Assembly: GCA_903813345.2 (NCBI GenBank)
Contig: CAIIXF020000008.1
Span: 21,436,822 to 21,500,821, forward strand
Reading direction: 5' to 3'
Length of the DNA: 64,000 nucleotides
Source: Owenia fusiformis
Lineage: Eukaryota; Annelida; Polychaeta; Sabellida; Oweniidae
Position numbers and translations under genes: made by a program. This document shows, one piece after another, positions 3,346 through 55,301 of the stretch (positions within the stretch are counted from its first letter, which is position 1; each line of letters begins with the position of its first letter). The notes beneath the pieces are model-generated. The model was not told the DNA's origin, did not search any database, and saw only the letters and a program-made list of their open reading frames with translations.

Positions 3346-3403
3346 ATCAAGTGGCCAGGTATAAGTGCATTTTCAACTTCATGTAAGTTGACCTTTATAT
3401 TTT

Positions 3404-11349: not shown

Positions 11350-14300
11350 GGCCTCTAGTATAGAATTGGACTCCATTGCACGGATGGTAGAAGCATCATT
11401 TCTGGTAGAAACAGCCCAGTCATTGCCAGTGACACCAACGCATGGGGAAATACGATCACATACTTACCATCAACGGCCACGAAGCAATAGCTATAGCAGT
11501 TCTAACATCCTCCCTGGCTTATCTCGGTATAACAGTGGCTCTAGTCTCCATTCAGATCCCGGGGATCTAACAGTTACTCCCCAGAGCCCCAACTACAGAC
11601 GCCCCCAAAGACCACACTCAGCCGAGACATATAGACGCAACCGCAGTGCCCCGATTAAGATATCTGGCCAGAGGAAAAAGCAGGATTACTATGACATTGA
11701 AGATCGTCAATATGAGGCGTTTATACGACGTGCCAGTGACTGTGTAGATAGTGTGTCTATTGCATTAACAGCCCAGCAAATAACGCAGTCCACTGCCTTT
11801 AGCTGTGATAGTTCTAGAAATAATAGCAATTCTGAGTGCTCACTCTACAGTGACATTTTACATAATGAAGCGCTACTGAGCCATGATTCAGAGAGAAATA
11901 ATGAACTTATGCAAAAGGATCATCGCGCGACTAGAATAAAACATCTTGAGACAAACATCTGTGATAAAGTACAGAGTGACATAAGCAATGACAGGGAGCA
12001 ATATATAAAGCAAGCGCAAGTTGATAAAGTTAATAAGTCACTTTTACATGGCAACCTTAGGGACTCAGGTTCTATAGCACATCATTCAATAGACAGACAT
12101 AGGCCTATGCAACACAACAATTGTTCTTCAGTTATACATGATACTCAATCAACAGGCTTCATTTTGGGAGACTATTCATTAGCAGAACAGATACATTCCC
12201 TGGGTAATCCAGACAGTACAGCATCAGCAGAAAGAGCGCAATTAGATCAACGTGGTAATTTACATTTTATGATACACGCCACAGACGGATTATTTGAGCC
12301 AAATAACAAAAGCTTGCAAATCAATACTAACTCACCAAATTACAATGCATCTTCAAACAAATCAAAACCAGCGGAAGTAACTTTAAAGAAAATCACATGT
12401 CTTGATTCTTATGTCAATATAGATTCACCTAATGAAGAACCATCAACTGGAAGTAGTTTATGTAATATAGATGATGTTAACGTATCAAAATACACTGACT
12501 GGCAATATTCGGAGCACCCCTATGGTCATATCCCATCATGCAACCGTGGAATAATAAATAGACCACCTGAGGATTTAGCTGGATACTCTAGTGAAAATTC
12601 AGATGATATAAGGTTGGATAACACGAAACCTCTGAATAACCTCTCAGAAAGTGTAGACACTAAAAACCAATTTGATTTCAACCAACTTGATGAGGATTTA
12701 TGCAAAGATAACATAGGATTTAATCTTAATGACATTGAAGGGGATATTATTAACATAGATGATATTATTACATTCAAGGAGGGAGAATTCACTAGAGAGG
12801 TCCTTGAGACTTTAGCACAGTTAGACGATGGAACAATTGACCTGAGAAAAGGCTCAGAGAGCAGTGAAGCCAGTTCGACTTCACCTATTGTTACAGATCA
12901 CGGTAAAATTGAAATCAACACACAATCAATCATTTCTGATGGTAAAGGAAATGATGCTATTTCAGAAAGGCAAACAATTGATGTTAACACTCAAGATCAA
13001 AGTGAAAGTTCTGTTAATTATACTGCCGAAAAGACTCAAGTTCATTTAAGTTCAGGAAGCAATCAAATAGAAAACTCTAGAGTCTCAAGCAATGAGAAGA
13101 CATGCGTAGATGTTCCAGTCGAGGGCCCATTAACGTCAATGAACGATAGGAAGCCAGATGTGATCACAGGGGCAGCGGGTACATCCTTGGTAAGCGCAAC
13201 AGAGTTTGAATCTACCATTGACGCTTTATGTTCTAAAAATAATAGTGATGGTACTATCCTTATACAATTAGACAGTGCTATAGCACAGTCAGACATCACT
13301 GTTCAAGCACACTCAAACAATACTAAAGTGCAATCATCAGCACAATCAGACTCAATTACAGCACAATCTAATGCTTGTGCTTCTCACACTTCATACTCAA
13401 CAAGCTCAAATCTTTTGCCAGCACAATCAGCCAGTGCTGTTATACCTTCAGACAGTGCTGTAGAAGCAAAAGATGATACAGTGCTAACTCTGTTGACAAA
13501 CCAATCGCAAAGCTTGGCGCAATCAGATTGTGTTATTTCAACTTGTTTAACCAATCAGGCTCAGTCAACAGAGAAGGCAGTCATATATTCTAACTCTACT
13601 TCCAGGAAAACAGAAAATCTAAGTATCTCCCCCACAAACAGTGTTAGGATTTCATCCACGGAGACCTCAGGAAAATTAGCTGACCAACAGCCGTCATCAT
13701 GTCAATACCCTAACTCCCCTGTCAATAATAGTGAAGTCCAATCTGAGAAAATCATTCATGGAGAAAATCCCCATGGGTTTCTAATCAATTCAACACCTGA
13801 TTGTATTGTAAATCAACTCGAGAGATGTGGACTCAGTGACAAGTTTAATGATTCTAACATATTGTTACAATCTACTACGTTCTATGATATATCTCCCCAG
13901 AAAAACTCAATTAGAGAAAACATCAATAAAACAAATAGTGCTCTTCTAATGTCAACTAACATAGACCAGTTCTGCAAGGAAAAATCTGATAACCTAATAT
14001 TGGGGGAAAATATTGACACTTCTAATAATGTTACTTCACTTGAAGCAATACATGTATCTCAACAACATATTAATAGACCCATTATTGACAAGTTGACATC
14101 GGATAGGAATGACATTCAAGTTGTAACCATTGATGCAGTAAATAATCAAGAAGATGTTATACATCTCGGATTATCTAATGTAAATATAAAAGAAACATCT
14201 AATATTAGCAAAAGTATTATTCAATGTAATCCAAATAGTGCCAACACGGAGGAGAAAATAATGAATTGTAAAACTAATGATTCTGTATCTCATGTATCAA

Positions 14301-15694
14301 CGATGGAGGATGGACTTGAAAACTTAGAACAATGCAATAGTGACAACCATGCTTCCTCTCTATGTAACGATAACACAGTATTAACACAAGATGTAAATAT
14401 GACATCAAACAATGTCAGTGTGACATCACATGATGTCAGTATGGCATCTAGTGACATCACTTTACCACTATCATCTGAAAGTTTCAATATATCTACAAGA
14501 GACTCAATTAAATCAGCTTCAACCAGTGATTCAATCAATTTAGCATCTGTGGTGACAATTGATTCATTAAATGTAGGATCAACCAATGATTCTGTTAATT
14601 CTGCTTCAACAACTGACAGTTTAAATGGATCAGAGTTTTCTGTTGATACAGTGATCTTTGTTTCCCCTCAGAGTAATAATTGCACCTCCAAAAACAGTTT
14701 GGAAAACAGAGACTGCTCCGGCATTGACACTACAATAGATAATCGTGAAAACAATGAAACAATTCCAGACTCTGTTGACCATGAAAATGACTACACTGCT
14801 GATCCAAAGCAAGTTGATGGAAGTGAAACTGATTCAATTTGTATCGATTTATATGAAAATCCCTTGCATTCAGGAGTATCAGATAGTAGCATCAATACAT
14901 TTGCATCACCAGATCGTAGTATTGATTCCGGTAGTTTAGCAAGAGCTTCTCAGGATGTAGATACAACTTTAGAAAAAGAAAATATCTGTAAGGATTTCCG
15001 GGGGAGTAAAAGAGGCTTAGATCCATTAGCTCAAAACAAGGACACTACGATACGTGATTGTACATATACCGATAACAGTATTGACAATATCATAGCTGAT
15101 TTAAACGAAAATGAAAACATCGAAGAACAATTAAAATGTGCACTAGATATGTGCCAAGCAGATGCAAAGAGCAATAAAGTAAATCCACCATGTAATATTG
15201 CAATTAGTAGGCTACAACATAGGCAGAAAAGCCTCACACCTGTGCCAGAGGGAAGTACAGATGACCTTGAAAGTGTAGCTTCAACAGCAACAGCTGATAG
15301 CAAACATGATATACACACCACAGGCGAAGATATAAATAACGAAACAACACAAACAAAACCTACATGTACAAGTCAGGATAATGTAAATAGCCTGGAAGAA
15401 GATGGAATTATAAAAGCAAGATTACTGTGTCACTATGGAGATAAGGATATAACGTATCAAGATGAGGCTTCCAGGAATTGTTCCCCAAATAGTCAAGTTA
15501 CCCATAATGCATCAGACATAACAGACGACAATATGCAGTCCAGTGACAACAGCCAAGATTTACATATTATTGAAGAGATTTTGGACTCAAATGGATTAAA
15601 ATTTATCAACTTTGCCAAGGAGTATTTCAATTCACATATCCGGGATACTGGTAACTCGGTCCTCAAGACGCTTTATAAGAGACGTCAAAGTGGG
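11350..15694 (+). CDS. Giant disordered exon, ends at start of MyTH4-1
   Basis: This exon is 4,345 nt with acceptor CTCCAG (phase 2) and donor GTAAGA (phase 0), coding for 1,448 full codons. The N-terminal 130 residues are Arg/Ser/Pro-rich with basophilic kinase-like sites (RPRSNS, RYNS). The remainder is Ser/Asn/Asp/Thr-rich with degenerate repeats of AQSD and TDS(L/I)N type, as in intrinsically disordered regions. The last 45 residues (FINFAKEYF...LKTLYKRRQSG) are ordered and open the first MyTH4 domain. If an upstream coding exon does not exist, the first internal ATG is at 11384 (MVEASFLVETA). The frame is open throughout, far beyond chance in AT-rich DNA. Confidence 0.9.
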
Positions 15695-18600
15695 GTAAGA
15701 TATACATTCATTTATTTCATCTCTTTAATTTAATGAAACTCACAAATTTTTAAAGGATTATATCCCAAACTCCATATATGCGACTGAGAAATGGCATATT
15801 CATTTGATGGATTATACTTTTAGATATCATATTTACTTACACAAATCTGATGCTTAATGGAGTAATGGTATTTGAATATGAATATGCCAAATGCCATTTT
15901 CTGTTTTGACCATGAAGTAATACTATAAACTGCTAAATTAGAATTATGGATTTCCTCAATGGTTAATTAGACAATTTTGTCTCTATGTGATTGCTTGCAG
16001 GCACCGGTGAGTGAAATTTATTTTTGCTTGGCCTGATTACATAATTCTCTTGAGAAATTATTCTTAATTTCAAGTATTTTTCTTTGGAGTATAACCACAA
16101 ACCCTAGAAAAAGTGAGAAAATACCTTTCTGTGGCTTCCCCATCACTCTGATATTTCAGTTCAACAAATAGATCTGACCTTAAGCCAAAGCAACCAATTC
16201 TTCTCAATTATCATTCAGAAGTTAATAACATAACAGAAATAGCATATTGGGCTAAGAGCATTGATTTATATGTCAATGTTAAACTGTTTACAGGATAACA
16301 TCATCCAAGCTATTTAGAGAAATTAACTTAAATTAGTGAAATAGAAAGAAATGAAACAATATTATATCATGGACCATGATTTTGTATGTAGTTATTTTTA
16401 AGTACTGTACATGTTACTTCGAAAAAATTATGCTGATTTATAAGGATTATTGAGTATGTCTGATAATACCAAAAGCCACCAATTAATTGTTTGCTGCATC
16501 AATATAATGTAGCGTGATACGAAGAATATTAAAAATGCTATCACGCAATTTTCACAATTAATTTTTTTGTATAAGTTCACCCTTCACCTGCATGTCAGTT
16601 ATGATTAATCACAAAGCAAAATTCCAAATCAAGAAAAAAGAATGAAATATTGCCAAAGGATTGGTATCGATATGGTGAACTTTTTGAACACACGTTTCTG
16701 TTAAACCAGTCATCAAAAAATTCTGAAAATTTTACACATCATCAATTTAATGGTCATCTTTTGAATGGTAACAATATAATTTGAAAAATATATATATATT
16801 TTTCTCTATATTGTTTTAGAAAACACTTCTTTTGTTCTTGGTATCATATGTTTAATGAAATGAAACATCTATCTGAACCTCATTGAAACAAAATGTCATA
16901 AACACAACATGTTTAGGTCTCTCAATATTGTAATTGTACAAAGGAAAGTTTGGTTGATTTGAAAAAAGTATCTTGTTAATCTTAGTTTTGTCTATTTGGG
17001 ATGTTTTTGTTTGAATTTTTTGAATATTTTTTCTTAAATCAACCGAACTTTTCTCTGTATAACTATAATATTGAGAGGTCTAATAAAATGTATATGCTAT
17101 TTTGTTCCAACAAGGTTCCGAAAGATATTTTATTTCATTCTCAAGAATTGGTAGAAAGGAACAAAAATCAATTCAAAATGTTAACAAAAGCAGTTATATA
17201 AAATATATATAAATAATTTTCGCATTAAATTGTTGTCAATCAGTCAACATTACATAAAGGACCGTGTTTTTTTACAGAATGTTTTCAATAATTGGTTTAA
17301 GAGAATAACATTGTTGAATTCAGTTCACTATATCGATACCAATCCTTTTAATGTTTACCTTTCTACATATGCTTTACCTTCCCCTTTCTCACATGACTCA
17401 TGTTGCCTTTGGCAGAGTTGGCTCATGTTTAAAGCATGTTCTACTGTGAAGGAACATTGACATTTGAAAATAATCTAGCTGGAAATAATGTTTGTGTAAT
17501 GAGCTTGAAATTTTATATACTTATTTCTACTTATAAATGCTTTGAGCTCTTGCTCATGGGTCTTTAAATGCTTTTTATAAACTATTTTATGATCTGCTAC
17601 TTTTTATCAGAAGATTCACTTAATTGTTTTCTTAGCCAATTTGTTGCTGTATATTACAACATGGTTTTATTATACCAATAGTCTATTTCATTCTATTGAG
17701 AGGAATACCTTTGCATCTTTCACAAGTAACATACACTGAAGCCTGAATGAGCACCTATGGGAATATTTAGTACAGATATTCACCAAAATATTATTCACTG
17801 TTATATTCCGCTCTCTGACTGGGACAGCACTGGCTACAGAAAGCTACCTGTATATAAAAATAGACATGTGTTTGAGTACAGCTTCTGAATACAGTGTATC
17901 CTTTAAACATTTAAAAGAAATAAAACCTTGGAGATATGTGATAATTTACACTGAAAGAAATACCAGCCTGGCAATATGCTATTAATTTCTGTTGAAAACC
18001 CAAATGGTATAAATAAAGGATATCCTATGATTTACTCGTGATATGATTTTTATCCACGAATGGATATGATATCTGCACGAGTGAGCGTAGCGAGAGAGTG
18101 CAGATATCAATAACCATGAGTGGATTAAATTCATATCACGAGTAAATCATAGGATGTTCTTTTTATTCCATAGTTAAAGTCATCATCAGAATCGTCGGAA
18201 ATTAAGTCATTTAATTCGAATTTTCCAAACGATCCGGCGATGTTGACACTTAGCCTCGTTTTTGAGTCTGAAGTAGCAAAAATCCATAAACCATCGCATA
18301 CGACGTCGTATGTCATGGCTAAAAAACCGTATGCTATGGTTAAGTGAAAATTTGTCAAAAATATCATATTTTACCACTGATTACAAAAATACCGTTTTTA
18401 TTTTCACATGTTATCCTATGAATATCATGCTAACTATGGAATAAACCTGGATATGATCTTTATAGGGTCATATTCTTGACCAGGAAATATGGCTTATAAT
18501 TCCCAAGTCATGTGTACTGTAGGACATGGACCTATCAGAGAGTGGGGAATATGGCAGTTGTATAATAATGTTATTTATTTATTGTTTCATTATAGCAGGA

Positions 18601-21600
18601 TTTATTCCATAATACTACTGTTTTCCCTTGGAAATAAAATCATATTATCACTCTTAAATCATATATTCTCGAAAAATCATATTGTCCCTGGAAAAAAATC
18701 ATATATACTCGAAAAATCATATTTTTTTCAAAAAAAGTTCATTTTTTCAAAAAATCAGTTTTTCCAATTTTTCATTTTTCCAATTTTCAAAAAAAATAAT
18801 TTTTTCTTCAGAAATTTTCATTTTTTCAAAAAATTTTCAAAGATTTTCATTTATTTCAAAAATTTTCATTTTTTCAAAAAAAAAATTTTCTCAAAAATTA
18901 GATGATGGAATAAAAAGGTCATTTTATAGTTGATTTTCAATATGAATTTTATTCCACGGCGCGGGAAATATGACATTGACGCTCGTTCGGTCAATATCAT
19001 ATTTCCCTCGGTCAAAATCATATTACCCTGGAATAAAATTCATATTGAAATCAAGCATGAAATAATCTATATATAAAATGCTTATGTCCTGTTTTGGAAT
19101 TGATTACATGTTTTATACCTCTGTAAATATGATATGATATCATATATCATTAGCCCTCAACATATTGGCCATATTTAATTCCTCCCAGTAAGTAACCTCT
19201 GTTTATCCTATGATTTTAGCAGGAGTTATCCTATGATGAGATGACAAGATATATGACATCACACATCATCCCGACGTCCCATGTTCCATTACACTACCCC
19301 GACAGCATCAGTAGCGCCATCTCTATTTTCAAGGTACAGGGCAGGTAGCTCACAATGTTTCTTATGGAGTCTAGGCTAGATTAATTTTTTAATTAGTTTT
19401 TGTTCTTGAATTGTAAAAGGATAGGGGCACAGTGTAAGGTAATAGGTTAAAGCCTCAGTCATATTTGCTTCACAAAAGATTGGTACTTTAACGTACTGTA
19501 TATCAAGATGAAAGTGTTTTCAATCCTTTTTAAAGCCTTATTACTGCTGTGTATTACTGATATTTACTTACCCACTTGAAATTGATACTCAACTTTCATT
19601 CCATGTAAAGAAAACAGAAATTGATAGAATATTGACTGAATAGGAGTGTTTATTATTAACATATGTTGCATTTAGTAAATGAAAATGAATCCAATTGATG
19701 ATACTCCTCAAGAAGTCATTTTCTAAGCTCTTTGACCATATTCTCTCTGATAAGTGTACAGGGCGATTCCCAAATTAAAATCTAAAGGGAAAGGTATTGA
19801 GAGATTCTAATGAGTGTGTGCACATACAAAAATGTAGAAAAATCTCCAATAATCTTTTTAGTTTTTATCACTTAAGGTCTAGGGACTGTAGAGCTCCTTA
19901 TTTCTTTCTCTGCATTGAATGAATTAAATATTAAACGTTAAATAGTCAAATCAATCGATATCTTGTTGTGTAGATTATCAAAACTGATGCATTTAACTGT
20001 GTGTTTTCTTGAGACCATATGCTTAACATATATATACATACTGTATTTGCCGTAGTAGGCGCCCGGGCGCTTAAAGTAAGTCAAAACAGTTCAAAAAGTT
20101 GTCCTTATTAGCGCCCATATGAGTCTCGCCTGAGAAAAGATGCCGGAGTCTCATTTTCAGTTTTGAAAAAAATTGGAAGAAAATTTTGGTTCGTGAAATT
20201 CGCCACGTTTGCATGAACCGTGGGGTTCATACCTATCCCACTCTTTTTGCTACACTAATGGAATATAAAATATTTACTTACATCAGTATTTTACTCGATA
20301 AATCTATAGGAAAACGGACTTATACCTGCTGAATCGAAAAATGAATTTTTTCTCAGTCTCGTTTTGGAATTACAAGTCGGGACCTATTATAGCCCACTTG
20401 ACTTCTTACGTTTGACCACAATGATCATTGATTCTTCAACCAGGGACTCACTCTCGGGCCTCTAAAAGTCTGGGGGGCGCTAATAGGAACATGAGCGCCA
20501 ACTACGGCAAATACAGTATATATAAAAGGTGAGCGCTCATGAGAAATAATACGGTACATCCTTTACCTTCAGGCGTAATGAAATTTAAGAAATTTCAAAA
20601 TGATTTATGTAGATACAGGGTGTCCGGAAAGTAAAGATACAAATGCTCTAATTATAATAGATTTTCCTGTTGTGAGATGAAATTGCTCCAGAATGTAGAA
20701 TGACATTATAACAATATATCCTGCAACTGTCATGACTTTCAGTTTGAAAATGAAAAAGTTATGGTTGTTATGGTAACGAGAGTCGAGGGTAAGTGGAGCA
20801 ACGTCACAACTGTGTTCTACAAATCTCTTTCCTGCTCATATGATCTTGGCATTCCACCATCTATTCGTATACTATATCAAATTATGTACCACAACAGCAT
20901 AGGGATTAGTAATGTAACATTATTTTATCATTTCATATTACTACTATCATTGAATATTCAGTATTTTCCCCATTATCTATACATTCTTGGTGCATCTTGA
21001 CCGGCGATTCAAAGACCTGACAAAACCGCTGCTGTCCATCTCTCAGATTGCTGATAACATTTGGCTTCCAGCTGAGTCTCATTTGTATGTTTTTTACAAA
21101 TATTGCTTTCAAATGGTCATTAAGGTAGAAGTCTAAAGAGGCTTTATCAGGTGAATATGGGGCATTGTATAGAAAGGTTTAATGTCAAGACACTCCATTG
21201 CAAGATTTGTTTCTTACTTCATAAATTGGTGCATTGTGGAGATGCAATATTGGCTTTCCTACTAGCAATTTTTCACTTTTTAGCGTTGTTCTGGAACTGC
21301 TCCGCATACCTCTCACATCCGTAACCATGACAACCGTAACTTGAACACATTTAGACTATATGTGATGAAAGTTGGTAGATATATTGTAATATTGTTCCTC
21401 TACAATCTGTAGCAATTTCATTTCAAAAAACTCAAATTTCTTAAAATAAGTGTATTTGTATCTTTACTTTTCGGACACCCTGTACTAACAACCTTTTATC
21501 ATATAATTAATCACTTTTAATAATAAAAACTATAATTATTTAAAAGAAAAAAGATGCAAGGTTCCAATTTGTTGTTGGCATCATATGTTAACTCTGAGAC

Positions 21601-27600: not shown

Positions 27601-30600
27601 AAATGTTGGAAGCAATCTTTAGAAAAAAAGAATTAAAATACCTGATTTTCCTCATTCCTCATGGCCACATTTTTTAAGATGGGCATTCAGATACACATGT
27701 TCAACTGTATTTGTACAAAATTATACAAGTAAAATTATTTTTTTTTTTAGGACCTTCATAAAATTCTAAAAAGTGATCTGAAGTCAGAACATACAATATG
27801 TACACTTAAGCACATCATCGGCCAAGGAATAAACAGGGTAGAGCTGAGGGATGAGATCTACTGTCAGCTACTGAGGTTCACCACTGATATGCCAGATAAA
27901 GGCGGGAAACATCGCTTGTGGTTTCTGATGGCGTTATCGGTGGTATCCTTTGTACCAAGCCGGACCTTATTGAAGGTATGAATTTTTGGGATGCACGTAA
28001 ATTCAAAATTCTGTCTAACACTCTCCAATTTCAGATTTTATTTTCATCAGTGAGAGAGTAAAATAAGTTGGCAGTTATTGCATTGATAACCACCCGTACA
28101 TGTTATAATTATGATATAATAATACATGCAACAGTTCATTAGTTGATAGCATTTTATTATAGTAATTTCCATTATTTTGTATATAAACAGTATGAATAAT
28201 TTATCTCCTCCATGTGATCACTTTAAGAGGATACATAGATAAGAGACCTGGAGTTCCAACCTGCAGCTTTTGTGTTTCATCTGAGCAAATTTGTGTACAT
28301 AATAAAAATGAAAAACTCGGTCAAAATGTAGTTAGAGCATGTAGTGTTGTCAGAGCAACAATTTCTCCTCTCTCTTTTGTCTTTTGTTGAAGCTGTAATT
28401 CCCACACTATAAGTTCTGGTCCCCTTTTTCATATTGGGGCAGGGGACAGTTGCCTGACATAATTACATTAAATTTCTGGAGATAACATTATGTAGTAATT
28501 TCATTATTTAATACAATATCTAAATAACATGCAAGTCCCACTGGACCTCCTTATTTTGAAACAAATCCCTAATCATAAGATTAATATTACTGATTAATCC
28601 TCTTTTCCTTGCTTTCTGACAAACACATAAATAATATATAATATATGGGATCGATGTGCTTTCTGTTGTATATTAATTACCATTACATAAGTAAACATTT
28701 TGTTAGAAGTGGAGAAATTTGTTTTCCAAATGTGAGTATCCTTATTAAAACTGTTAATTGGTATAACAAGGACAGGTATTTTTGAGACTGTCATTTGGCA
28801 TTTAGTGTAGGCGATCAGTGTTTGTTATAACAAGATCCTTGAGATGATTGAGTATTGTTTCCCCAAATCTGACACAAAAATAAATAATGAATGATAAAGG
28901 AGGTTTTGAGGTTCTGAATAACATATAACTCTCATACAATTAGTTAATTACAGAAAACAAAACATAAAACAAACTTTTACAGCCATTGGAGACCACTTAA
29001 AAAGTATAATTAACTAGTTTGATAGTATATGAACATGAATGACACTCCAGATAGTATTTCATGCACCATAGTACAGTAAGGGGAGGCATCAAAAGTTCGA
29101 TGTCGGATAGAAAACTAAATAAATCTAGTTAGGGGGGGAGGGGGTTCAAACCCATTTCAGTTTGCTATCCGACAAAATTCAACATTTCAAATTTTGGGCA
29201 ATTTCAACTCAGAATGCCTTGGAATGGTTTAAAAATAAAGATTTTACCTGATGCTTTCTTCATCAAGATCATTCCAATGGAATCTATTCTATCAATAGTT
29301 GTTAAAAGCCGCAAATTACGATAGGAATTAACAAAAACTAGATCGTGTTTAGCAATAATTTTTCAAATTTTCAAACCGGAAGTAAGCGATCAACTTTCAC
29401 GGTATTTAGTTTTTGGGGGGAGGGGGGGGGGTCTGAGTCAAAACTAGATTTATTTAGTTTCCGATCCGACATCGAACTTTTGATGCCTCCCCTAAGACCT
29501 GTCCAAGTGGAACACCTTTGGTACCTCTCTAAAGTGTTCCACTTGGGAGGTGTTCCACATATGGAGGTTCATTTAACATTATGTCAGTTGGTCTTAGGAC
29601 TCTGAAAAGTGCTCCACTAACAGAGGTGTTCTACCTCTAAAGGTGTTCCACTTTTCGGGTTTCACAGTACAAGGGACATTTTTATTGCCTGTACAGCTTC
29701 ATATGTGGTTTGTCATATATTTCAGTATGTGGTGTGTCACATTAAGGCACACATGCAGAACCAGGGACAAATTGGACACTACGCCACCTATTGTCTGGAG
29801 CACTTGAAACTCACTGTCCACAATCAACGCAAGATGCCCCCATCCACTGCAGAAATTGAGGTAAGTATTAATATCTGTTGTTTGATTGTTTGTTTGTGTA
29901 TTACTTGGTTTGGACCTATTTGCTACCCTATTGAAGGAGCCACATTAACATGGCATACCTTTTACCATATTACATAGTAATACAATTCAATGAAATGTTA
30001 TTTGGCCATTAAATATTCAAAAATAATACTCGAGGAAATGTTTTTGGGCCATTAAACATTGAAAACCCCCACATCATGACATATGCTCATTATTCATCCA
30101 GCATCAAGAAGTAGTGACATATTCTTAGTTTTTTATGTTATTGTTACTGGCACTCGCAATGCATTTGGCATCAGTATCTGTTAAATATTAAATCAGAAAA
30201 TTGATTAAAGGAAGAAATCATATTTCATGAAGATTTTGACTTATTTCAGGCTGTGAAATCAAGAAATCCTATAGTATGCAGAGTATATTTCTTGGATGAC
30301 AAGACAAAAGCTCTGAGCATCGACCCTTCTGATACTGCTGGTGATATGGTGCTAAAAGTTGCCAAGAAGATTGGACTGAAGACCAGTTATGGCTGGGAGC
30401 TGTATGATGTAAGTACACAAGTTGATTTGTATGTTGTTCATGTAAAGCAATCCTTTCATTATTTGGAGAGCAATCGTGCAAAAATCATCGAAGGTACAGC
30501 AAATATATTGCCTGAACATATCATGCAACTAGGCATTATTATCAACAGAATCCATGTGCAGGCGATATGCTGATCAATATGTCAAAGTTAGACAAGGTTG

Positions 30601-33600
30601 CCATTAATCAACCCAAAACTGAGAAGGTGTCCGATATGTTGTGGTATTTTGGTCATATGGTACTATGTCATCTCCAATCAAGAACCTGGGATTCAATATG
30701 ATATACATGTAATTCTGTTATTTATGTTACTTGAGTGAAGTTACCAGTGTAAGTATGCTGTAGGCCTATATGGATTTTTGAAATGAATATGAACCAAATA
30801 CATGTACAAGGTTTTTATTTTGAGACGCAATTATTATTTTCGGGCAGTCAGGATTGCAATTAATGTGCAAAGGCAGAATTGACATAAAATTCCAATATAC
30901 TGTAAACCAGAAATGCGCTGCATGGTCAACTGTAAAAACTATTGACCACACCTTAACCTATCATAATCAAGTATATTGACTATGGTACTAACAATATATA
31001 CATTTTATTTTAGAGAACACCAAATTATCTTCGCCATATCCACAGGCATGAATATGTGGCTGACATCTTGTACCAGTGGGAGTTGTAAGTGATTATAATG
31101 TAAAGTGCTGGCAGTTTGTGTGTTTCACATCTTTACAGGCAAATTATAGACCAGGAAAAAGTCTCGTTTTTGTCACTTAGCAGGTTGCAGAAATATTGAT
31201 TTAGATATTCACAATTTCGGTACAGTTTTTGTTCTTTCAAAGAGTGTAATTTTTTAAATACTTAAAAGAAAGGAAAAGCATGTCTGGTAGGCAGGTGGAA
31301 ATTAAGCAAGATTTTTTCCTAGCCTTATAGGTGAAGCACCCACTGGAATCACTACATATATTTGTCAATGTAGTCTCAGAACGTTTTTCTCTCAAATCAT
31401 AGGCTAAAGTAAATAAATACAATGCTTAGCATATACACAAAGTATCTATTTTAACGTCCAGACAGACAAAAATATGTTTACAGACAATAAAATCTGTGTC
31501 TGTGGAACACCCTTCCCTTCTGACCAAAAGTATTCTTTGTCGACAGGTGTTCCTCACAGGAATGTATGTTAATGACATGACTGTTCCTGTAATAGAGGGT
31601 TGTTTCTCACTGAAAAGTGTTCCTTACAGACAGGGTTTCTATTGGTCAGTTATTGATTAGTTAAATGATATACAGGATAAGAAAAAGATACATCCCATCA
31701 TTCAAAAACTAAATAGTGCTGAACAGAGAATTTATTTACTTTGGCCTTATTGTAACAGAGGAAATACTGTCATACACCACCAGAAGTATGTACCTCCAGG
31801 AAGATAACGAGGGAGGGTGAGATAGAGAAATTAATATGGACAGCATATTTCAATACATAAGCTCTAAAGAAACAAAGATAGGCTCTGCACCAGTGAATTA
31901 TTTTAGATGAAATATAGATATTTTGACTCACTGGCTTCTTAGAATTTTGAACTCAAATTCGATTGGGTAAATGAATGTCCATATGGTTTGATTTACAGAA
32001 CGGTCTATTGAATATGTTGATCACTAAATTTTGTAAAGTTACTAAATATTGTAATTTTTGATAACAATCCTGGTGATGGGAGTGCCATGTTAGATATATT
32101 TGGGAAAACATATTTATGGAGCAATGATACAAACATATTTCCCCACCCTGTATATTAGTAGATAATTGGGGACATTATGGTGACCATAATATATATGTTG
32201 AATAATCAATGCATGTTATTTCTTGCAAACTTTCTATGCAGCATGTTTGATATTTGATTTAGTCTTGTCTTTTCCAGTGTCTGCAGTGTCTACAGCATCA
32301 CCAATGTGTATATGTCATTGGCAGCTTTCTCTATTTGTATAAAATGTCATAGTATCTCCCACCTTAAGGTTGGCCTCGTAGGATGTCTTTTGCCAGTTTA
32401 TACCTGAATACGAGATGATTATTCATTCTACTCAGACTACCTTAAAGGAAGGAGACTATTTCTTTGTAATCCTGCTCTCCACCTTAAAATGCTCCTTCTA
32501 CTCTATTGCGTTTAGACTTAGATGGGTTTAAGCAAATAATACCAGGAATATATGTCATATCTATGAAGTGGGTCCAAAATATTGTATTACTTCCATTCAA
32601 ATGAGTACAATATGATATATCTGACCTGCTCCCAGGAATTTAAATCTCTAGCTGTCTTAAAGTATAAGATATACCAGTTTTGTATGGTTGATTTTGGAGG
32701 TAGTGTTTATCCCTTGGGTAATAACCTATGTCTGCCCTCTTACCCTACAATATAAAAATATATCTAGGGATAAACCTTAAATCCAAAACCACTCAGTGGA
32801 TAGTGGGGAGGTAGGGAGGTCCTCCCAGTTCACCAGACATGTTGGGCACCAGAGGCAGATCTGGGAACCAACAAGGGGGGGCCCAAATTTCAGGTCAGAG
32901 AAAAAAAGTTGCGCGCTTGAGTGGAAAAACATTTTGGGCCCCTAAAACTCAAAAGTGGGCCCAAATTTTGAAATTTTGAGGCCCATTCCTTTCAAATTTC
33001 ACCATCATGTTTCTTCAAAATGAGGCCTGAAATTAACAAATAAGGCCTTAAAAGGTCCAGTAATTACCAAAAAGGCCCACTTTTTGGGACCTTAAGGCCT
33101 TTTTGGCCCAAAATCTGCTTTGGGCCCAATTTTTTTTCTGGGCCCACCCAAGGGCCCACGCCAGTGGGCACATGCACAGCACACTTGAGACTTGGCCTCA
33201 CCACATGAATATCATGTGTTTCTTGCTGTACAAGTACAGTGGTAGCCAGGATTCAAAAATAGGTGGAGCAAACCTAAAAAGGCAAGGCAAATCTAAGATG
33301 ATATTCACTCTTGGACAAAAAGTCTGAAAGATTTTCCCTGTGACATTTTGTTGAGGCAGTTGCCCCATGTTGTATGTGTATATCTGTGACTGTACTGTAT
33401 GTGGCATGTTGCTTGTGTATTTGCAGAGCACCCCCAAACATATGCGCCACATCCAATCCAATGAGCACCTAGCTGATATAGTATCACAATGGGAACAGTA
33501 AGTTATCCCTTCTCTCTTTCACAGTGGGCAAGACAGTGTCATATGTTGACCTCATATTATGGACCTCAAATATTAACATGTCAATATGATTAATCAACGA

Positions 33601-36600
33601 AATCTAGAAATTCCAATTATTTGATTTTAAGTAATTTCTTGTAAGATTAAGATTTTTCTCTTTAATATTTTTTTTCCAAAAATTATCAATTTCCTCAATT
33701 TTCAAAAAAAATCTTTTTATTTACCTAGTTCAATCGATTGATCCTCTTGATGTTCTTTCGACTCTTTAAATACTTGCAACATATCAACTATTATTCTATA
33801 GTCAACTATTGTTCCATAGATGTTCTTAGCTTATTGAATGGTGGATGTTTCTTAGCTAATAGTGAAAACAATTGTTTATACAGTGTGTGTATTGAGTATT
33901 GTGTTTGTTGCTATAATACTTTCAAAATAGAAAACCTGCCATGACCATTCTCACATTGCAATCAATGTGTTGCTAACCTTTAATATGTACATAATCAATT
34001 GCAAGATGATATTTCTCATTGAATGATAAACAAACACTGATTTAATTAGCAATCTATGTAACTTTTCTAGAAGATTTGGGTTACATCACAAAGAGATATT
34101 CATATCAGTTTGTTCTATTTTCTTGAAATAGATAGGGTCCATCGATCAAAACTTTATCTCAACATTTTTCATCTTTAATGTCTTGTGACTGCCATTAATT
34201 TGAATTATAATTTCAGTTGACCATATAATATTTTTTGCATGCAATTCAAATAGTGTTCCCCCTTCATCTTTTCCCATGCTCGCATTTATAGCTAGGTCCT
34301 TAAAATGAATGAAACATTCACCATATCATTTAAATATTTGAATAGACAAAGAACCTTATTTATGCACCTGACAAAGAACCTTATTTATGCACCTGGCAAA
34401 GAACCTTATTTATGCATCTGACAAAAAATGTATTTATGCATCAGTGATATCAGAAGCTTGCTGCCAACCTGGCCTATTATGTAGTGTAGTGCCACCCTAC
34501 AATAACATCAACGAGTATGATATGCTTTTGAGTGACATGCTTGGGTAGCACCACTATGACATGCTTTTAAATTACATGCTTGGGTTATGGGTAGCACCAC
34601 TATGACACGCTTTTGAATGCCATGCTTGGGTAGCACCAATGTGACATGCTTCTCAATGACATGCTTGGGTAGCACCAATGTGACATGCTTTTCAATGACA
34701 TGCTTTGGTAGCACCACTATGACATGCTTTTGAATGACATGTTTGGGTAGTACCACTATGACATGTTTTTTAATGACATGCTTGGGTAGCACCAATGTGA
34801 CATGCTTCTCAATGACATGCTTGGGTAGCACCACTATGACATGCTTTTGAATGACATGTTTGGGTAGCACCACTATGACATGCTTTTGAATAACATGTTT
34901 GGGTAGTACCACTATGAAATGTTTTTGAATGCCATGCTTGGGTAGCACCAATGTGACATGCTTTTGAATGACATGCTTGGGTAGGACCACTATGGCATGC
35001 TTTTGAATAACATGTTTGGGTAGTACCACTATGACATGTTTTTGAATGACATGCTTGGGTAGCACCACTATGACATGCTTTTGGATGACATTCTTGGGTA
35101 GCACCACTATGACATGCTTTTGAATAACATGTTTGGGCAGTACCACTATGGCATGCTTTTGAATGACATGCTTGGGTAGCACCACTTTGACATGGTTTTG
35201 AATAACAAGTTTGGGTAGTACCACTATGGCATGCTTTTGAATGACATGCTTGGGTAGCACCACTATGACATGCTTTTGAATGACATGCTTGGGTAGCACC
35301 ACTATGACATGCTTTTGGATGACATTCTTGGGTAGCACCACTATGACATGCTTTTGAATGACATGCTTGGGTAGCACCACTATGACATGCTTTTGAATAA
35401 CATGTTTGGGTAGTACCACTAAGACATGCTTTTGAATGACATGTTTGGGTAGTACCACTATGGCATACTTTTGAATGAGACATACTCAGGTAGCACCACT
35501 CTGCTTCTTTGCCAAACGGAGACAGCTTTTGCTATTTTAAGCATGTTATTTGGTAAATGCTCATAATTATGGTAGCACTTTCTTGCTTCAGTCAGTTCAG
35601 GTACATGTACATTGCAGTAGATATAAACATGAATTAAATATAATATTCATGTAGATATAAACATGTCTAATTTTTATTTTATGTTGAAAAATCAATTGAT
35701 GATCAGAGAAGTGATATAAAAATCGACAATGTGTTTTCACCTATCAATTCCATATCTGTATCTTTTACAAGTAAAAGGAACATGTTCACATCTGCCTTGC
35801 TATTATATGGTGAGGAGTCAAAGAATGAAGGGAAGGGACAATGTGCATTCATGCAAGAAAAATATCAGGCACTTAATATAAGCTGTATAAACTATAATTA
35901 ATCCTCCATTACAGGGAAGGTTTCAGTACAAGCCACACATGTAAGCACCACTCTGTACATGTGACAGACAGCCCTAGTAAGAGCTTTGGATTTGAAGAGG
36001 CCAAGTTTGTTTTCTGTAAAAGGATATTTCAACCCCTCGGTGTCACCCTGGAGGACCCTTTAGAGGTGAACTTGATGTATGCCCAGGCAGTCTATAATGT
36101 TGTCAAGGTGGGATTTCATTTCATTTTTTTGTGTAGCAAACCAGGTTTTAGACTTGGATTAACACATTCATTGGTGCAATCTGGAGTCAATGATGCATAT
36201 CAATGATGCATATCGATGCAATATGGTTTTATGATCACTTTGATTGTCAGCATTCATCTTGTACACAATGTGAAATCATTTATTCATCATTATTACTATT
36301 ATTATATATTATTATATTATTTATCATTACAGCTTGATGCGTACCAAGCCTCAGAGGATCTTGCTTTGCGTTTAGCAGGGCTTCAAGCTCAAGTCACTCT
36401 GGGACCATATGAGGAAGATAAATCTTTCAGGTATTCTACTGATCCCAATGTTGTTCTAGCCACCCCCCCCCCTGATTTTATTAATTAAGTTATGAGGATA
36501 GACATTCTATTTGTTTTGCTTTTTTTGAAAAATGATAAACAAATATGGTAAAGGAAAACCACCATGCTTTTCCAATGGCCAAAGTTTTTGAATTCTGAGA

Positions 36601-39600
36601 TAAGTCAGGGAATTGAAATGAGCAAATGTTATGACCGTAAAATATAAAGATTTGTCAAAAATGACAATACATGCCGTTCTTTATGTGAAGGAATAATTTA
36701 ATCTTATAATCATGATTGTGTACAGTACATGTGTATATCAAAAGTAGTCTATATTGTAGGTATGATGATGTAGAACAATATCTCTGCCCTAGACTTGTGT
36801 CCTGTGGAAAACACCGTAACCTCAGCAGAGATATAGAGAGATCACATAAGGTAAAACACATGTAATCTGCTGTGATCTACGTTTTTATGATTTTTATAAT
36901 ATTTCATTTCAATTTGTTCCTAAAACATTACTATACTATACTTTACTATACAATGTACCATACCATACCATACCATACCATACCATACCATACTATACCA
37001 TACTATACTATACTATACCATCCCATACTATACTATACTATACTACATGTATATCTGTACCTTAGAAGTTTTTAAAGTTTTAAGCTGAAATGGCATTTTA
37101 TCAATTTCATGAACAATTCATGCACGAAGAAATTTTACAAAATAAGAACTATATCGTAATACCAATTACCAAATGTCACCTGAGAATGCATCAATTCTTT
37201 ATATAGAGAAAATGTCAAACTGTGTTTTAATTTCTGTTCTAGTGGCTTGCAGCTGGTAAGAGTAAGCTAGATGCCCAGACAGATTACCTTCAATTAATGG
37301 ACCAGTTTCCCTTATATGGAAGCACCATGTTCCTGGTGAATTACAAAGGAGAGTGGGCCTATGGCCGAGAGACATTCATTGCAATTAGCATTGACAGTAT
37401 ACGCTTTGTTAGTATACAAGACCGTTCCCTCATTCATGTGTACTCCTATGATGAGATTGAGAAGATTGTGATAGATGACTTGAAGGAGATTCTTACAATT
37501 GAGATCAAGTAAGAATTTGCACATAAGCCTAAAAGTGAGAAAATGCAAGGTGGTCCAAGAGTAAGAAAATACAGGGTGGTCCAATTGTGTAAGGAAATAT
37601 AGGGTTAAACAAAATAAGGGTGGTCCAGGATCGGGAAAATGCAGAGTGGCCTCAGTGTAAGAAAATATAGGGTTATCCAAAGTGAAACGAAATAAGGGTG
37701 GTCCAAAAGTAGTAGTTGTAGTATACTAAAGGGTTATCTTGGAGTGAGGAAATAAAGGTGGTCCAAGAGTGAAAAAATGCTGGGCAGTCCAAAGGGTTTT
37801 TCAAGAATGACAAAATACAAAATGGTCCAACAGTAAGAAGGTGTTCATTTAAGAAGGGTCAAAGATTATGAAAAGTAAGATTATCAATGACTACTATATC
37901 TAATGACTTTTAGATCCACATGTGTTTTACAGGATATTTATAGTATTTTCCCTTTCAGTTATATAAGTTTTCATTGAGTAGTGTAGATGTATTTGAATGA
38001 ATTGGGCAAAATATAGAGCTGACATAATATAAGCTAATCAATATATAAGATGAAAACAACCTAGAATGAAACGACACTTAACTAAATATTTTTTAATTGG
38101 ATGTATTGATTGTAGGTCAGAAATTGAGACGTGCCAAAAATGTTACATGTTTGAGATTGATGCAAAAGATGATTTCAAAGATCTCATTGCTGCTTATTCT
38201 CCACAACACATATCATGGAGATCAATTCACCCAGTTGTAAGTTGATCATTTAAAATATTTAAAAAAATATCACTTAAGAGGTTTGCCTTTTCTGTTATTG
38301 GATGCTTAATGTCATTATTAAAATGGGTTGACTCATCTGCGGTAGGGAATATAATATCAAACAAAATCAGCATGGGATTAATTTGTTCATGGAGTTCTTT
38401 CAACATTGGTCCATGATTATTTCTGAAATTGGCTTTGTTGGATCCAAAATACTAAGATGAAAACACATAGATGAGAATAGAACTCCCAAAAGTAACTATT
38501 ATGATATTGACCACAACACTCATGGGTGTGATATTGAAGTACATGTACTGGTAATGTACAGGGTGGTCCAAAAAAAAGTGAACCCCTGCAAGTGGCCATA
38601 TTTCCCTTATTACTTGCAGGAATTCTTTTTTATTTTCACATGTTGTAGAGGAAGGTCTAAAATTTATGTTGGGGCCATACATTTTTCTTAGTCTTGAAAT
38701 TTGCAGAAATTATAAGCCCTAACCAAACATTACTGAAAATGGACAAATTGTGATTTTCAATATCCGCGATTCTTCAACCCTTTAACACCTTTCCCCCTGA
38801 GAATTTTTTAAGCTGCAGTCTTAAAGAACTAATATTTTCTGACTTTGTTCAATTTTAAATCCTGCACATTATGGCTTAAAACTAGCATCCTACATTTGTT
38901 AGTTGCAAAGTTATTGTGATCCAAAGAGATGTGCTAAGCTTCCACAGACGAAAACATTTTCCAGTGAAATCATGAACATACCCCTATATGATCTTGAAAT
39001 GTCAATATCTTCATAAATCATGGACCAATTCTAATGATTTATGGCTCAAAACATTGGATATTGGATTTTCTTTTGATTTTTTAAAGATATTTGATAAAGG
39101 GGTTATCAGATTCCTGGTCACAGGGGGCAACTCCCTTCCATAAGAGGCCCCCTCTAACTGTTGGTGTAGGTAACATACCCCTGAAACTGTTGAACAGTTA
39201 AAAATGCTTCAAAATGATCAATGAAAGTGTGAAATGTGTTTTCTGCTTGAACAGTGTCCCTTTTGTCATATGGTAGGGTTTTAAATTTGTATCTCTAACT
39301 GAAAGCTGTTTAAGATCATCCACTATGTTTCAACAATTTCCTTGAATCACATTTGTAAAATTTTGTACAATATCTAATTTCCAGGCATGTTTGTTAAACG
39401 CTTGTAATTTCTTCAAAATTTAAGACTGAGAATAAATTATGGCATCAACCAAAATTTTAGACCTTTCTCTACAACATGTGATAATATGAGCCAATTCATG
39501 CATGTATTAAGAAAAATATAGCCTGTTGCAGGGGTTCACTTTTTTTGGACCACCCTGTATATGAAATACTGTAAAGACAACTCCATGATTGTTGCAGGGA

Positions 39601-42600: not shown

Positions 42601-45600
42601 ACTAATAAATGAGTCCCTCAACTCACTTAATGGTTTAACCCATTGGGCACCCACCGTTGCCCCAAATATTAATAATATTGAATATTAACATACAAAATCC
42701 ATGGAAGTGGTTTCTCTTGCATTAGATTACATTGCTTTAACAGAACAGCATGTCAAAAATAGTCATTTTTAAATAACAATAGAAAATGATTAATCAAAAT
42801 AACTAGAGTAATATTATACTAACAGCCTGGTTGATTTATAAACCATTGTACATGTAGTTTAATTGCTCTGAGTATACATGAATGATAAAGTAAAGCTTTT
42901 CACTACCATAGAAAGTTACATGTATTTAGCATTTAAGGTGGGCCATGTGGGATAACTTTTGAAACCATATGTGTTAAATGTTCAGGTTAATTAGCCTGAT
43001 TATTCATTCTATTTAGCCTACCTTAAACGAACCAGCTAAGGGAGAGCAAACTTGAATATAAAACTTGTTTGACACTGAATGATAGCTTTATGGGATCTCC
43101 ATGCACTTGGGGAGGTACAGCTGCAGTAGGACAAAAGTTTAAACCTTTCTGGCCATCGTAACCCTTTTCAAATTGTTTAATATGCACTGTTCCTTTATTT
43201 GTATATTCGTGAATTTTGTAATGTCTGCTTGGAGATGAGAAGTCAAGTTTGCTCTGTCTGGGTCAGATAAACCATAGTCTACATATGCCATGCCCATAAT
43301 ACTATTCTATTATCCACATACTGGTATTTTGCTATGCCCACATACATGCTTGTGCCAACTGTCAATACCACTGCATCTTGCCCCTATTCATTATGCTAAA
43401 GATTTTCTTTCATGTTACCCCTACCCCTATATAGAGAAGGATGTCACTGAATTTGCAATAGTTCTCCCTTGTGAAAAATTGCAGAACTAAACATGATACC
43501 TTCACATTAAAAGTTCCATTACCTAGGCCTGTCTGCATGATCATGCTCCCCCCCCCAGACCCCCAACCTGCTTTCACATTAGGGTAATATTAAGGAATGC
43601 AGATTTGGTTCAAAAGAATACAACATCCTTCAACAAACGAACTAACAGCCCTGACTACACCATATAGTTACATACTCTATTCCTACTACAAAATTTCCCA
43701 ATTGGTTTTCGTGTTTTGTGTAATAAAAACTAATATTTCCTTTATAGGTTTCACAGAACCCAGTTTGACAAAATATCTATGCCAGGAGCCAGTAATGTGC
43801 GCCTCAGTCATTTCAAGCCTCCATTTTGGTCAAGTTCAAAAACAGAAATGCGACAATCGTTGATGCTATTTGAGAGCCAGGAGCTAGAGGATGTTGCAGT
43901 GAAGATGTTTAATTCTTCCTTGATTTATGCAGGCATTGAAACTGGAGGTACTGAATGTTTGTAGTTTTGTTGATTTTTCATATTGTTGTTTTACTCTGCC
44001 AGTGCAGAATTATATATGTAAAAGTATGTTTGTGGGATGCTATATTCAAAAGTAATATCAAAAGTAATATTAAAGAATGCTCTTTCATTAAGAAATATGC
44101 AAGACAGTTTCATTAGATTTCATTAGAGCAGATCTAGTGTTCCACTTATACATTTAATTTCATTTTACCAGATTGTCACTTTTGGATAATTTTATTGTGT
44201 TGTTTTACAAAGACCAATTTTTCTTGTTAGGTTTGGAAAGTAAAGACCATGCTGTTGTCATACAAACACTGATAAGTAAATGCCTGGAAAATAGTCAGCT
44301 CTGCAATGAATTCTTTCTTCAGCTTATCAAACAAACTACAGCCCAACCAGGTAATGCATAAGAAAGATGACTATTTTTGTTGTGACAATAGGTTGAGACA
44401 GGATTGAATTACAATGTTTTATTCCTCAAGAGTGAAAGTATATTTTAGCTTGATGCCCAATAGCCTGTTTCATTCATTGCAATATTTGATATTTTATTAT
44501 ATTAGTTTGTAACCATTTACATGATCCCATCTTATTTCATTGAATAATAATATTCATAATATGAGAATTAAACAATTTCTATACAGGCCTGTAACCAGGG
44601 GGGTTCGATGGGTTCGAGCGAATTCTTTCAAAATCATGCATTTTTGCATCATTCTGAGCATTTTTTATGTGATTTTGGCCATTTTTGAACCGAAATTGTC
44701 AAAAGTGAACCCCCTGGAATTTTTCAAAAACTGAACCACCCTTGGCAAATCCTGGCTACGGGCCTGCTATAATGTAAACAAATGTCTTGGTTTATGCACT
44801 TGTGCTTGTTGTTTATTTACTATAGAGCCCGTTGGTGCAGTAAGTGCTAACTACTGGCAGATGTTGTGCCTCTTGACGTGTGTCATGGTTCCTGCCAACA
44901 AGGACATCCTCACATACTTGCGGCTTCATCTCCGTCTCACAGCTACAGACACAAACTGCACTGATGGCAAATATGCAGCCTACTGCCTCCAGGTAGGCTT
45001 TCTTGTTTTTTTCAGAAATGTCCTCTTTGTTCTGTTGTTTCAGAAATTTTCCTTTTGTTCTGGTCATATATTGACTCCTACATTTTGAAAGTGTCCAGAA
45101 AGCAAAAAATAGCATCTTAAAATTGTAAAAGGAGGAGGGAAAGTATCGCAACAGATTTTATACAGTCATATGTTGGATTTTGTCTATTTTCTGAGGATTT
45201 AAACAGGTGCATATGTTAGACCAATGCATTACCTCCAGGAAAAGCACTCCTAAAGATGATAAAATAATTTTTTGACTTTGAGACATTGAAGATGCAAACA
45301 ACCCACCCACCTGTTTTTTCTGAAATGTTTTCCTGATTTTCAACCCCTTCCTACTTTTCTAATTTTTCTTGCATTAATATATTGTGTTTTGACACACAAT
45401 TAACCCCTTTAAAGGAATAAGTGATTCCTTTTAAATAAAGTGGAAAACAATATTTCCCATGTTATTTTCCCATAGGGAAAATTCATGTGATCCATTGCTT
45501 TCAGCTAATTTTGGTCACCCATAATGGATATCTTTAGAGCCCCCCAAAGAATCATTCCTTTAAAGGGGTTAATTGTGTGTCAAAACACAACATATTGATA

Positions 45601-49548: not shown

Positions 49549-52500
49549 CTGTAATTTATATAAAAAATCACATTTTTGATATTGAGTAGAATGATTAATA
49601 TCAGCATTTCACTGGGATAGAAGAAAAGGACAGTTTGAATTTAAAGTGAAAAAATACTATTTAATTCTTGATAAATTGGTCAAAGGGGTATATCATAAAC
49701 AGTTGTCAAACCCAATAACATTCAGGACTCGATCAAACCCCATTATACGTATGAAAGTCTTAATCATATGCCAAGTACATAACAAAGGATCATCTGTATC
49801 CCACTGCATCCTTGCTGCAAGGGTATTTTACAAGTACAATTTAAGCATAAATGAAGTCCTTTGAGGAAGGATGTCCCACTGATCTTGACACAATTTACAA
49901 GCAGGCTATGCAATCAGAGATTTAACAAATAGTCTCATATTCTTACCTGGGTAGTTCCATGAAGGGATTTCCTACAAAACATGTAAAATAGATGTTGTTA
50001 TATTATCATATGGCATTTCTAGGAATAAATGAATCAACTTTATTTTGTCACATAAATGCCTATAAGGGTCATTTATAAATGGAACCACATTTATATGCTG
50101 TTATTTATTTATAGACCCATTTCTTGGTTCTATTAAGTCACTCTTATTCACACTCATCTTTTATGATACTCATATTTTGTGTTGTTTAAACATTTATAGT
50201 ATGATCTGTAAAATGAAGCTCTCTGATTGGTCAATCTGTATTGCTTCTTAGATTGTCTCCGTCGCAACACAGAAAATATTGGTACGGAGGGAACAATCTC
50301 AGTAGCAATACAGAGGATGACACGATAAAACGTTATTGAATGATTTGAAGTGCAATACAGGATATATTCTGCTCGATATTCTGTATTGGCACTCGACTTT
50401 GTCTCGTTCCAATATGTAATTTCTCGAACAGAATATATCCTGTATTGCACTTCAAATCATTCAATTACTTATATTATCGTATGATCTGTAAAATGAAGTC
50501 CTCTGATTGGTCAGTTTTTGTGCTGTACCAATCTGTATTGCTACTGAGATTGTCCCCGTTGATCATCTCCCTCACAATACAGAAAATATTGGTACGGAGG
50601 AGACAATCTCAGTAGGATTACAGAGGATACACGATAAAACGTTATTTGAAGTGCAATACAGGATATATTCTGCTCGATATTCTGTATTGGCACTCGACTT
50701 TGTCTCGTTCCAATACGTAATTTCTCGAACAGAATATATCCTGTATTGCACTTTAAATCATTCAATAACTTATAGTATTATGGTTATATAGCTGTGTCCT
50801 CTATGCTCTTGATGTCCCATATGTTGTTTAAACATGTAGTGTGATGTATTGTAATGTCCCTTATAAGCCTTATGCTGTTTAAACATGTAGTGTAATGTAT
50901 GTTGTGTCCCTTCTGCTTTTTAAACATGTAGTGTGATGTAATTATTGAACATGTAGTGTGATATATCATTGTGCCTCTATGCTGTTTAAAGATGTAGTGC
51001 CAAAAGCTGTACATTTACATGTGTTGTTGTGTCCTTATATCATTCATTAGAGGGAGGGTAAATGGTAATCAGTTGATCAAATATAAAGGTCTTAAATTAT
51101 CAAATTATGTGGAACTCACATTCCTTCTGCCACAACAAACAACTGCACAGCCAAATATAGAGGATACAATGCACAGAATACCACAGATAACTCCAATGGC
51201 AATCGATATCACACTTAGGTCGAGTAACTGAAATTTTTTTAATCATTCTTCAATCCAACAAAGGAATTTTTCTTAATCATGGCATAGATATGTAAGATAT
51301 CAGTGGTATAGAACTCAGCAGTTTGATTGGCTCAATTTGGACTCGAACATGCTCAATGATGAAGCCTCGATGGAATACATGCTGTCAGTGATGTTCATAT
51401 AAAACTGAGCTTGTTAAAGACATTTTATTAGTCCTTGAAAACCTTTTTTATCGATTGGTTTATTTTATAAATACATGCACACAGTGAGTAAACAGGGTTG
51501 GGTCCTTGAAAACTAAAAAGTTTGACTGCTTCAAATCGTGTACCTACCGTGACAGATTCCAATGACCATCCTACATATGATACCATAAAGCTATAGTATA
51601 TTATCAAGGAAATGGCGAAGAATATTCCAAGAACACTAAGAACCAAATGTGTTGCAATCTGAAAAATTTTAAACAACCATTTTATATTATACAATCTTAG
51701 GCAATTGATTTTTGATAGTAATTCAGTTACGTTGAAAATTACAGAACCAGTTTTTGGAAAATGAAAAGTCCCTGTAGTTATTTTCTGAACTGAATACTGA
51801 TAATTCACAACATTGGTCCCAACTTTTTTGCCTCATTTTGAGGGATTTTTTGTTCAAAATATCACATTTTCATGAAATGCAAGTCTGTAAATTAAACTGT
51901 TATTAAATCAGATAATATATTTTGCAATTGGTTAATCAGCGAAAAATTATATAAGTGCTTAGAAAAAAGCTCCCTGGATTAATAGGAAAGTTAATAGTTC
52001 ACCTCTATGATGCTCCAATTCACAAAGCAAAGAAAAAAATCTTAAAATTAAATGTCTTGACCTTAAACTTTTCTGTACATTTGGCCATATTTCCCTGATA
52101 TTTCCCATTGGACTTCTACTAGTGAATATCTTAAAGTTGAACATAAAAATGAAACTCTGCTTGAAGCCAATGTTATCAGCAATCTGAGAGATGGACAGCA
52201 GTGGTTTTGTCAGGTCTTTGAATCTCCAGTCAAGATGCACCACATGTGTTTAGATAATGTTGGGAAATACATAATACTGGTCAAGATGATATGAGCAGGA
52301 AAAAGAATTGTAAAACACAATTGTGACGCTGCTCCACATACCTGTGACTCCTGTTACCATGGCAACCATAACATTTTCATTTTGAAACAATTTGTCATGA
52401 CAGTTGCAGGATAGATTATTAAATTATTAAAATGTCATTCTATAATCTGTAGCAATTTCATCTCACAACAGGTAGATCTATTGAAATTAGAGCAATTGTA

Positions 52501-55279: not shown

Positions 55280-55301
55280 CTAGGTAGTGTCCAGTGTTTG
55301 C
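55280..55301 (-). CDS. Gene B mini-exon (22 nt)
   Basis: Acceptor GTTTTGTAG, donor GTAAGA, coding for ANTGHYL plus one base. It mirrors the 25-nt exon of gene A, including identical acceptor and donor surroundings (GTAAGAATATGA). Confidence 0.6.

Follow-up and report, generated by a model that had tools for sequence, protein, structure and literature searches.

A candidate pair of mutually exclusive exons in the FERM domain of a MyTH4-FERM gene of the annelid Owenia fusiformis

The window considered here is the whole stretch of 64,000 nucleotides analysed from Owenia fusiformis (contig CAIIXF020000008.1, positions 21,436,822 to 21,500,821 of the forward strand), and all positions given below count from its first letter. 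On its + strand lies a gene whose product, judged from its Pfam profile, is a MyTH4-FERM protein, with a MyTH4 domain followed by a FERM domain. The MyTH4 profile scores 48.6 and 28.6 bits on two exons, RA_2 76-83 bits and FERM_M 26-28 bits, and the exon that ends the first MyTH4 domain is in phase with the FERM domain. Two further exons downstream are assigned to a second MyTH4 domain (Table 1). Three-frame Pfam scans of the + strand from 37700 to 64000 gave no match to SH3 or to a second FERM domain, with the proviso that intron-split domains can escape such scans, and no match to the myosin motor was obtained in + strand 1400-11400 or in the other stretches scanned (1-1399 and 15734-20599 being left out). 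Within this coverage, 11401-15733 was compared with Pfam as a long ORF only, 30301-37699 via its exons, and the - strand via five ORFs. The gene may begin outside the window. From 11300 to 15733 (+) runs one uninterrupted frame of 1477 codons; it is rich in Ser (14.5%) and Asn (9.3%), has no Pfam match and probably encodes a disordered product. It would be a giant exon before the first MyTH4 domain, and FINFAKEYFNSH, near the end of this frame, presumably resembles the lead-in of MyTH4 domains.

Other features are found elsewhere in the window. The first 9 kb are rich in repeats and include a duplicated stretch, at 4076-4261 and 5701-5886, with identical translations. On the - strand, 51428-61911 holds two sets of ORFs suggestive of a small membrane protein in duplicate, the string MESQNPQQT occurring in both of the ORFs 54481-54735 and 61528-61911; when five - strand ORFs were compared with Pfam, no family scored above its cut-off. 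Pieces of a LINE-type reverse transcriptase lie at 58461-59525 (+), where RVT_1 reaches 20.5 bits, under the cut-off of 29.6.

Table 1. Positions of the exon pair (E1 and E2), of neighbouring exons of the MyTH4-FERM gene and of candidate splicing elements
Feature	Position	Strand	Remarks
End of MyTH4 domain 1	29726..29860	+	Pfam MyTH4 28.6 bits, profile 54-104; AG/GTAAGT bounds
Upstream exon	30250..30408	+	Start of F1 lobe; ends ...WELYD, phase 0; presumed constitutive
Branch-point-like TACTAAC 5' of E1	30986..30992	+	Identified by sequence; putative function
Alternative exon E1	31014..31084	+	71 nt; encodes RTPNYLRHIHRHEYVADILYQWE + TT
Alternative exon E2	33427..33497	+	71 nt; encodes STPKHMRHIQSNEHLADIVSQWE + CA
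Pyrimidine tract	33503..33520	+	17/18 pyrimidines, then ACAG; five bases into the intron after E2
Downstream exon	35915..36107	+	End of F1 and start of F2; presumed constitutive
F2 exon	36333..36430	+	In frame with upstream exons
F2 exon (by position)	36760..36850	+	Phase only
End of F2 and start of F3 (the latter by position)	37243..37508	+	FERM_M 18.1 bits, under cut-off 23.8
F3 exon (by position)	38116..38236	+	Phase only; no Pfam match (ORF 38054-38245)
Second MyTH4 domain, exon a	44260-44361	+	30.3 or 25.5 bits (two scans), cut-off 27
Second MyTH4 domain, exon b	44837-44992	+	26.6 bits, cut-off 27

The layout of this gene recalls that of two groups of myosins. In the tails of myosins VIIa and VIIb (PDB 3pvl and 5f3y), as here, MyTH4 stands directly before an F1 lobe, whose layout is alike in the two cases, and identity over the aligned stretch is 31% and 24%, respectively; they differ from the present gene in that no SH3 is seen here. 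Class-22 myosins are described in the available text of PMC2375034 as carrying two tandem MyTH4-FERM units. The present gene resembles them in its two MyTH4 domains, in the FERM domain after the first and in the lack of any SH3 found, and departs from them in that neither a motor nor a second FERM domain was seen in the window.

The part of the gene that encodes the FERM domain contains two homologous exons, E1 and E2, which are separated by 2,342 nt and are alike in being entered in phase 0 and in leaving two bases over at exit. They are bounded by TTTTAG/AGA...GTT/GTAAGT and TTGCAG/AGC...ACA/GTAAGT, respectively. Their DNA is identical at 43 of 71 bases, and their translations have 12 of 23 residues in common (TP, RHI, E, AD, I and QWE), with a BLOSUM62 score of 74. 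The original prediction had set out the coordinates of this pair, its two 71-nt lengths, phases, consensus sites and 12 common residues, all of which were reproduced. With either exon alone, a single open frame of 333 residues runs through seven exons (30250-30408, E1 or E2, 35915-36107, 36333-36430, 36760-36850, 37243-37508 and 38116-38236). Translation also bore out the proposal that each exon joins in frame to its two neighbours and that using both breaks the frame: joint inclusion leads to a stop codon within E2, and skipping of both leads to a stop nine residues into 35915-36107. A second AG lies two bases into E1 and into E2; 69-nt exons starting from it were rejected as out of frame, and because they hit stops, 71 nt is the frame-keeping reading.

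When the gene is aligned with myosins VIIa and VIIb, the alternative exon extends from just past ELY(D) to QWE, which faces a VIIa stretch ending ISQCE. The downstream exon aligns with talin F1-F2, and since it holds both the end of F1 and the start of F2, the swap falls inside F1. The switch had been proposed to alter an F1/F2 surface; the alignments with myosin VIIa/VIIb and talin instead place the alternative segment within the F1 lobe, in what we take to be the stretch between strands beta-3 and beta-5 of the FERM fold. In all, 24 residues of the F1 lobe of the first FERM domain are exchanged, namely 23 plus one from the split codon (L or Q). The swap retains TP, RHI, E, AD.I and QWE; most of the residues that it alters are polar, charged or aromatic, as where HRH becomes QSN. 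The Pfam RA_2 profile scores 76.8 bits with E1 and 83.8 bits with E2, compared with 49.5 bits when the exon is masked (gains of 27 and 34 bits) and with 56.9 and 53.8 bits when E1 and E2 are scrambled (one scramble each). The spliced F1 query (residues 1-75) matches the F1 lobe of myosin VIIa with 29 bits in total and 24.1 in the best stretch, 3pvl being its best myosin match; ubiquitin repeats outscore myosin VIIa in this search because the F1 lobe is ubiquitin-like.

The likeness of E1 and E2 was set against the rest of the window in several ways. Among the 90 open 71-nt AG..GT candidates in the 64 kb (50 on the + strand and 40 on the - strand, E1 and E2 counted), the best third candidate has a BLOSUM62 score of 2 to E1 and 1 to E2, as against 74 between the two, and outside the pair no ungapped match anywhere on either strand exceeds 30 to E1 or 27 to E2. 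A third copy of the exon was rejected, as nothing in the window comes near the E1-E2 score. Pairs of equal length and phase, no more than 5 kb apart, with lengths of 45-151 and in three phases, were also surveyed. On the + strand, 35,771 such pairs were formed, 339 whose DNA was 75% or more identical were removed and 35,432 were scored (mean per-residue score -0.92, SD 0.50). Three reach 3.22 per residue; two of these are readings of E1/E2 and the third lies in the repeats at 7.4-7.7 kb. Ranked by total score, the 69- and 71-nt readings of E1/E2 take fourth and fifth place, and the three pairs above them are overlapping readings of a single repeat at about 2.8-3.2 kb. On the - strand, 30,711 pairs were formed and 3,743 removed; of the 26,968 scored, 12 reach 3.22 per residue, all of them from either a 39-nt minisatellite or, near 50 kb, a duplicated stretch, and 45 reach a total of 74, at the same two places as judged from coarse positions. 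The minisatellite (34516-35500, 25 copies) lies in the intron after E2, and the - strand around it is open for 325 codons. According to the available portion of PMC3228551, the fly X chromosome has 16,180 exons that are not spliced exclusively, of which 90 (in 6 of 1,705 genes) resemble a neighbour in length and frame and are homologous to it, and with look-alikes as rare as in that source, a pair such as E1/E2 would seldom be something else. When all ORFs of the window were compared with one another as proteins (E up to 0.01), the E1-E2 match had E=8e-7 and was the only match touching any of ten exons of this gene.

Neither a physical device nor a frame break upon joint use is strictly required for exons to belong to the mutually exclusive class. 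At the present locus, the sites are of the GT-AG kind, with GTAAGT donors at E1, E2 and the upstream exon; with such donors and AG acceptors, a clash of U2 and U12 sites is not applicable, and the distance between the two exons sets no steric bar, the spacing limit being about 50 nt. Among human clusters, as given in the accessible part of PMC5740500, U2/U12 clash accounts for 0.79% and steric spacing for 9%, lengths are not multiples of three in 60% of the exclusive clusters, and reads joining both exons are found in 22% of the frame-breaking ones. Docking/selector RNA pairing was sought in three layouts and did not exceed dinucleotide shuffles, of which 11/40, 7/25 and 13/25 were as good. 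The region 30250-36107 contains 15 pairs of inverted repeats (raw count); one 14-nt pair encloses both exons, a few short pairs enclose E2, and none of the sites can by itself pair with the flanks of both exons. The window yielded no Rfam family, and the Fox motif TGCATG is not enriched, occurring once in each of the three introns against expectations of 0.5, 0.9 and 3.1. With no RNA-structure device and so wide a gap, exclusivity at the RNA level finds no explanation in these features. The pyrimidine tract at 33503-33520 contains the sole CTCTCT of the three introns (0.2 expected in that intron) and continues, within 33498-33524, into an AG 27 nt past E2; it might serve as a PTB-type repressor site or as a decoy acceptor. 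A splicing factor would choose between the two exons, the sites of both of which look strong, perhaps acting via this tract, and messages containing both exons or neither would meet a stop and hence be destroyed by decay. Because none of the usual devices was found and the frame breaks with both exons or with neither, the best account would be a regulated choice combined with decay of the frame-broken products.

The two exons differ at 17 of 23 wobble positions and at 11 of the 48 others (p=5.5e-5), an excess found in the coding frame only (0.84 and 1.0 in the other two frames). Silent change is saturated (pS 0.99), unlike replacement change (pN 0.23); in a simulation with 20,000 random changes of equal size, 0.18% keep an open frame and at least 12 residues. 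The pattern looks like one that old coding DNA would show when subject to purifying selection. Upstream of the exons, the 200-nt flanks resemble each other slightly more than shuffled sequences do (18 of 500 shuffles as good), and the 200 nt downstream are alike no more than shuffles (78 of 500 as good). A recent duplication or a duplication in the assembly was rejected in view of the unlike downstream flanks, the only slightly alike upstream flanks and the saturated silent sites, and the origin of the pair would be an old exon duplication, both copies of which appear to have been held by selection. In similarity to MYO7A and MYO7B, E2 scores 28 and 24 and E1 scores 10 and 3. Since E2 is nearer to the myosin VII sequence, E1 is probably the derived copy, a weak reading given that the outgroups are two distant myosins only. 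A search for relatives of the pair produced 18 pattern matches among viral contigs, with 0 confirmed.

Altogether, E1 and E2 very probably form a pair of mutually exclusive exons that arose by an old tandem duplication in a MyTH4-FERM gene, and each protein-yielding transcript presumably carries one of them. Mutually exclusive use, the core of the original prediction, has good sequence support in the length, phase and homology of the two exons, the saturated silent change alongside a conserved protein, and the frame breaks, and the gene probably makes two proteins that are distinguished by a single small patch of F1. The greater distance of E1 from MYO7A and MYO7B, together with an RA_2 score 7 bits under that of E2, would suit a situation in which one of the two exons, E1 probably, is on its way to becoming a relic, still open by chance and hardly or no longer spliced in, leaving the work to E2, and E1 could be rarely used. 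A free old copy should, however, lose its frame and its similarity, whereas here the protein and both splice sites are retained next to saturated silent sites, and E1 adds to the RA_2 score not only over the masked exon but also, by 20 bits, over its own scramble; that E1 is such a relic thus appears unlikely.

It is also conceivable, and in our estimation decidedly improbable, that the pair is regulated and that frequent double inclusion or skipping acts as an off switch, its main role being control of the amount of protein rather than production of a second form. The early stops that follow from both kinds of message, and a gap between the exons that poses no physical bar to double inclusion, would be compatible with this role, yet an off switch alone would not cause both copies to keep their protein sequence or to go on fitting the domain. 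There is only a very slight chance that the two exons belong to separate transcripts, through an alternative promoter, a gene fragment or trans-splicing. The available portion of PMC3228551 does name terminal exons, copies of a gene in tandem and trans-spliced groups as known false positives of such prediction, but E1 and E2 are both internal and share the same flanking exons in frame, and none of the ten exons checked has a second copy save for E1-E2.

Taken as mutually exclusive exons, E1 and E2 would represent a known kind of exon pair in a new place, the MyTH4-FERM tail. Class II muscle myosins have tandem homologous, frame-keeping exons inside a folded domain, as does the probable myosin described here; their clusters lie in the motor domain, whereas E1/E2 lie in the FERM domain of a MyTH4-FERM gene (PMC3912159 and PMC5740500, in the text available). 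In a survey of shrimp myosins, alternative splicing is reported for 4 of 29 genes, including a mutually excluded exon 4 in LvMYH2 (PMC6537884, available text). Curators of myosin sequences state, in the accessible part of PMC5583752, that splice variants occur in many myosins and that the 5' exon of each exclusive cluster was retained; pairs like E1/E2 may therefore sit unreported in their tables. The claim that no such pair has been described for MyTH4-FERM genes agrees with the open-licence literature, where none is present among the matches listed in the text available, most subscription papers lying outside it. The matches listed there for MYO7A and MYO7B likewise contain no exclusive exon at the matching place.

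In muscle myosins, exclusive exons of the motor domain are well known and serve to tune the motor; the FERM domain presumably binds cargo. The E1 and E2 forms may differ in a partner, a lipid or an intramolecular tail contact. In ERM proteins, inositol phosphate is located at the F1/F3 junction (PMC6041286, in the excerpt available), and by likeness to these proteins the change from HRH to QSN could tune membrane binding, the alignment being uncertain. An exact mapping of the segment onto the ERM phosphoinositide pocket was dropped because MAFFT shifts this segment in ezrin, so that the comparison with the pocket is an analogy only. More tentatively, and as a possibility on which we would not insist, a regulated either-or exon might rewire the F1 lobe to provide two cargo, lipid or self-inhibition specificities, amounting to a cargo switch controlled by tissue or stage and long kept. 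An exclusive pair in the FERM domain of a tail would adjust the protein's cargo or binding partners, and if relatives share the pair, the natural variants would constitute a ready-made experiment on the F1 lobe in which only 24 residues are swapped.
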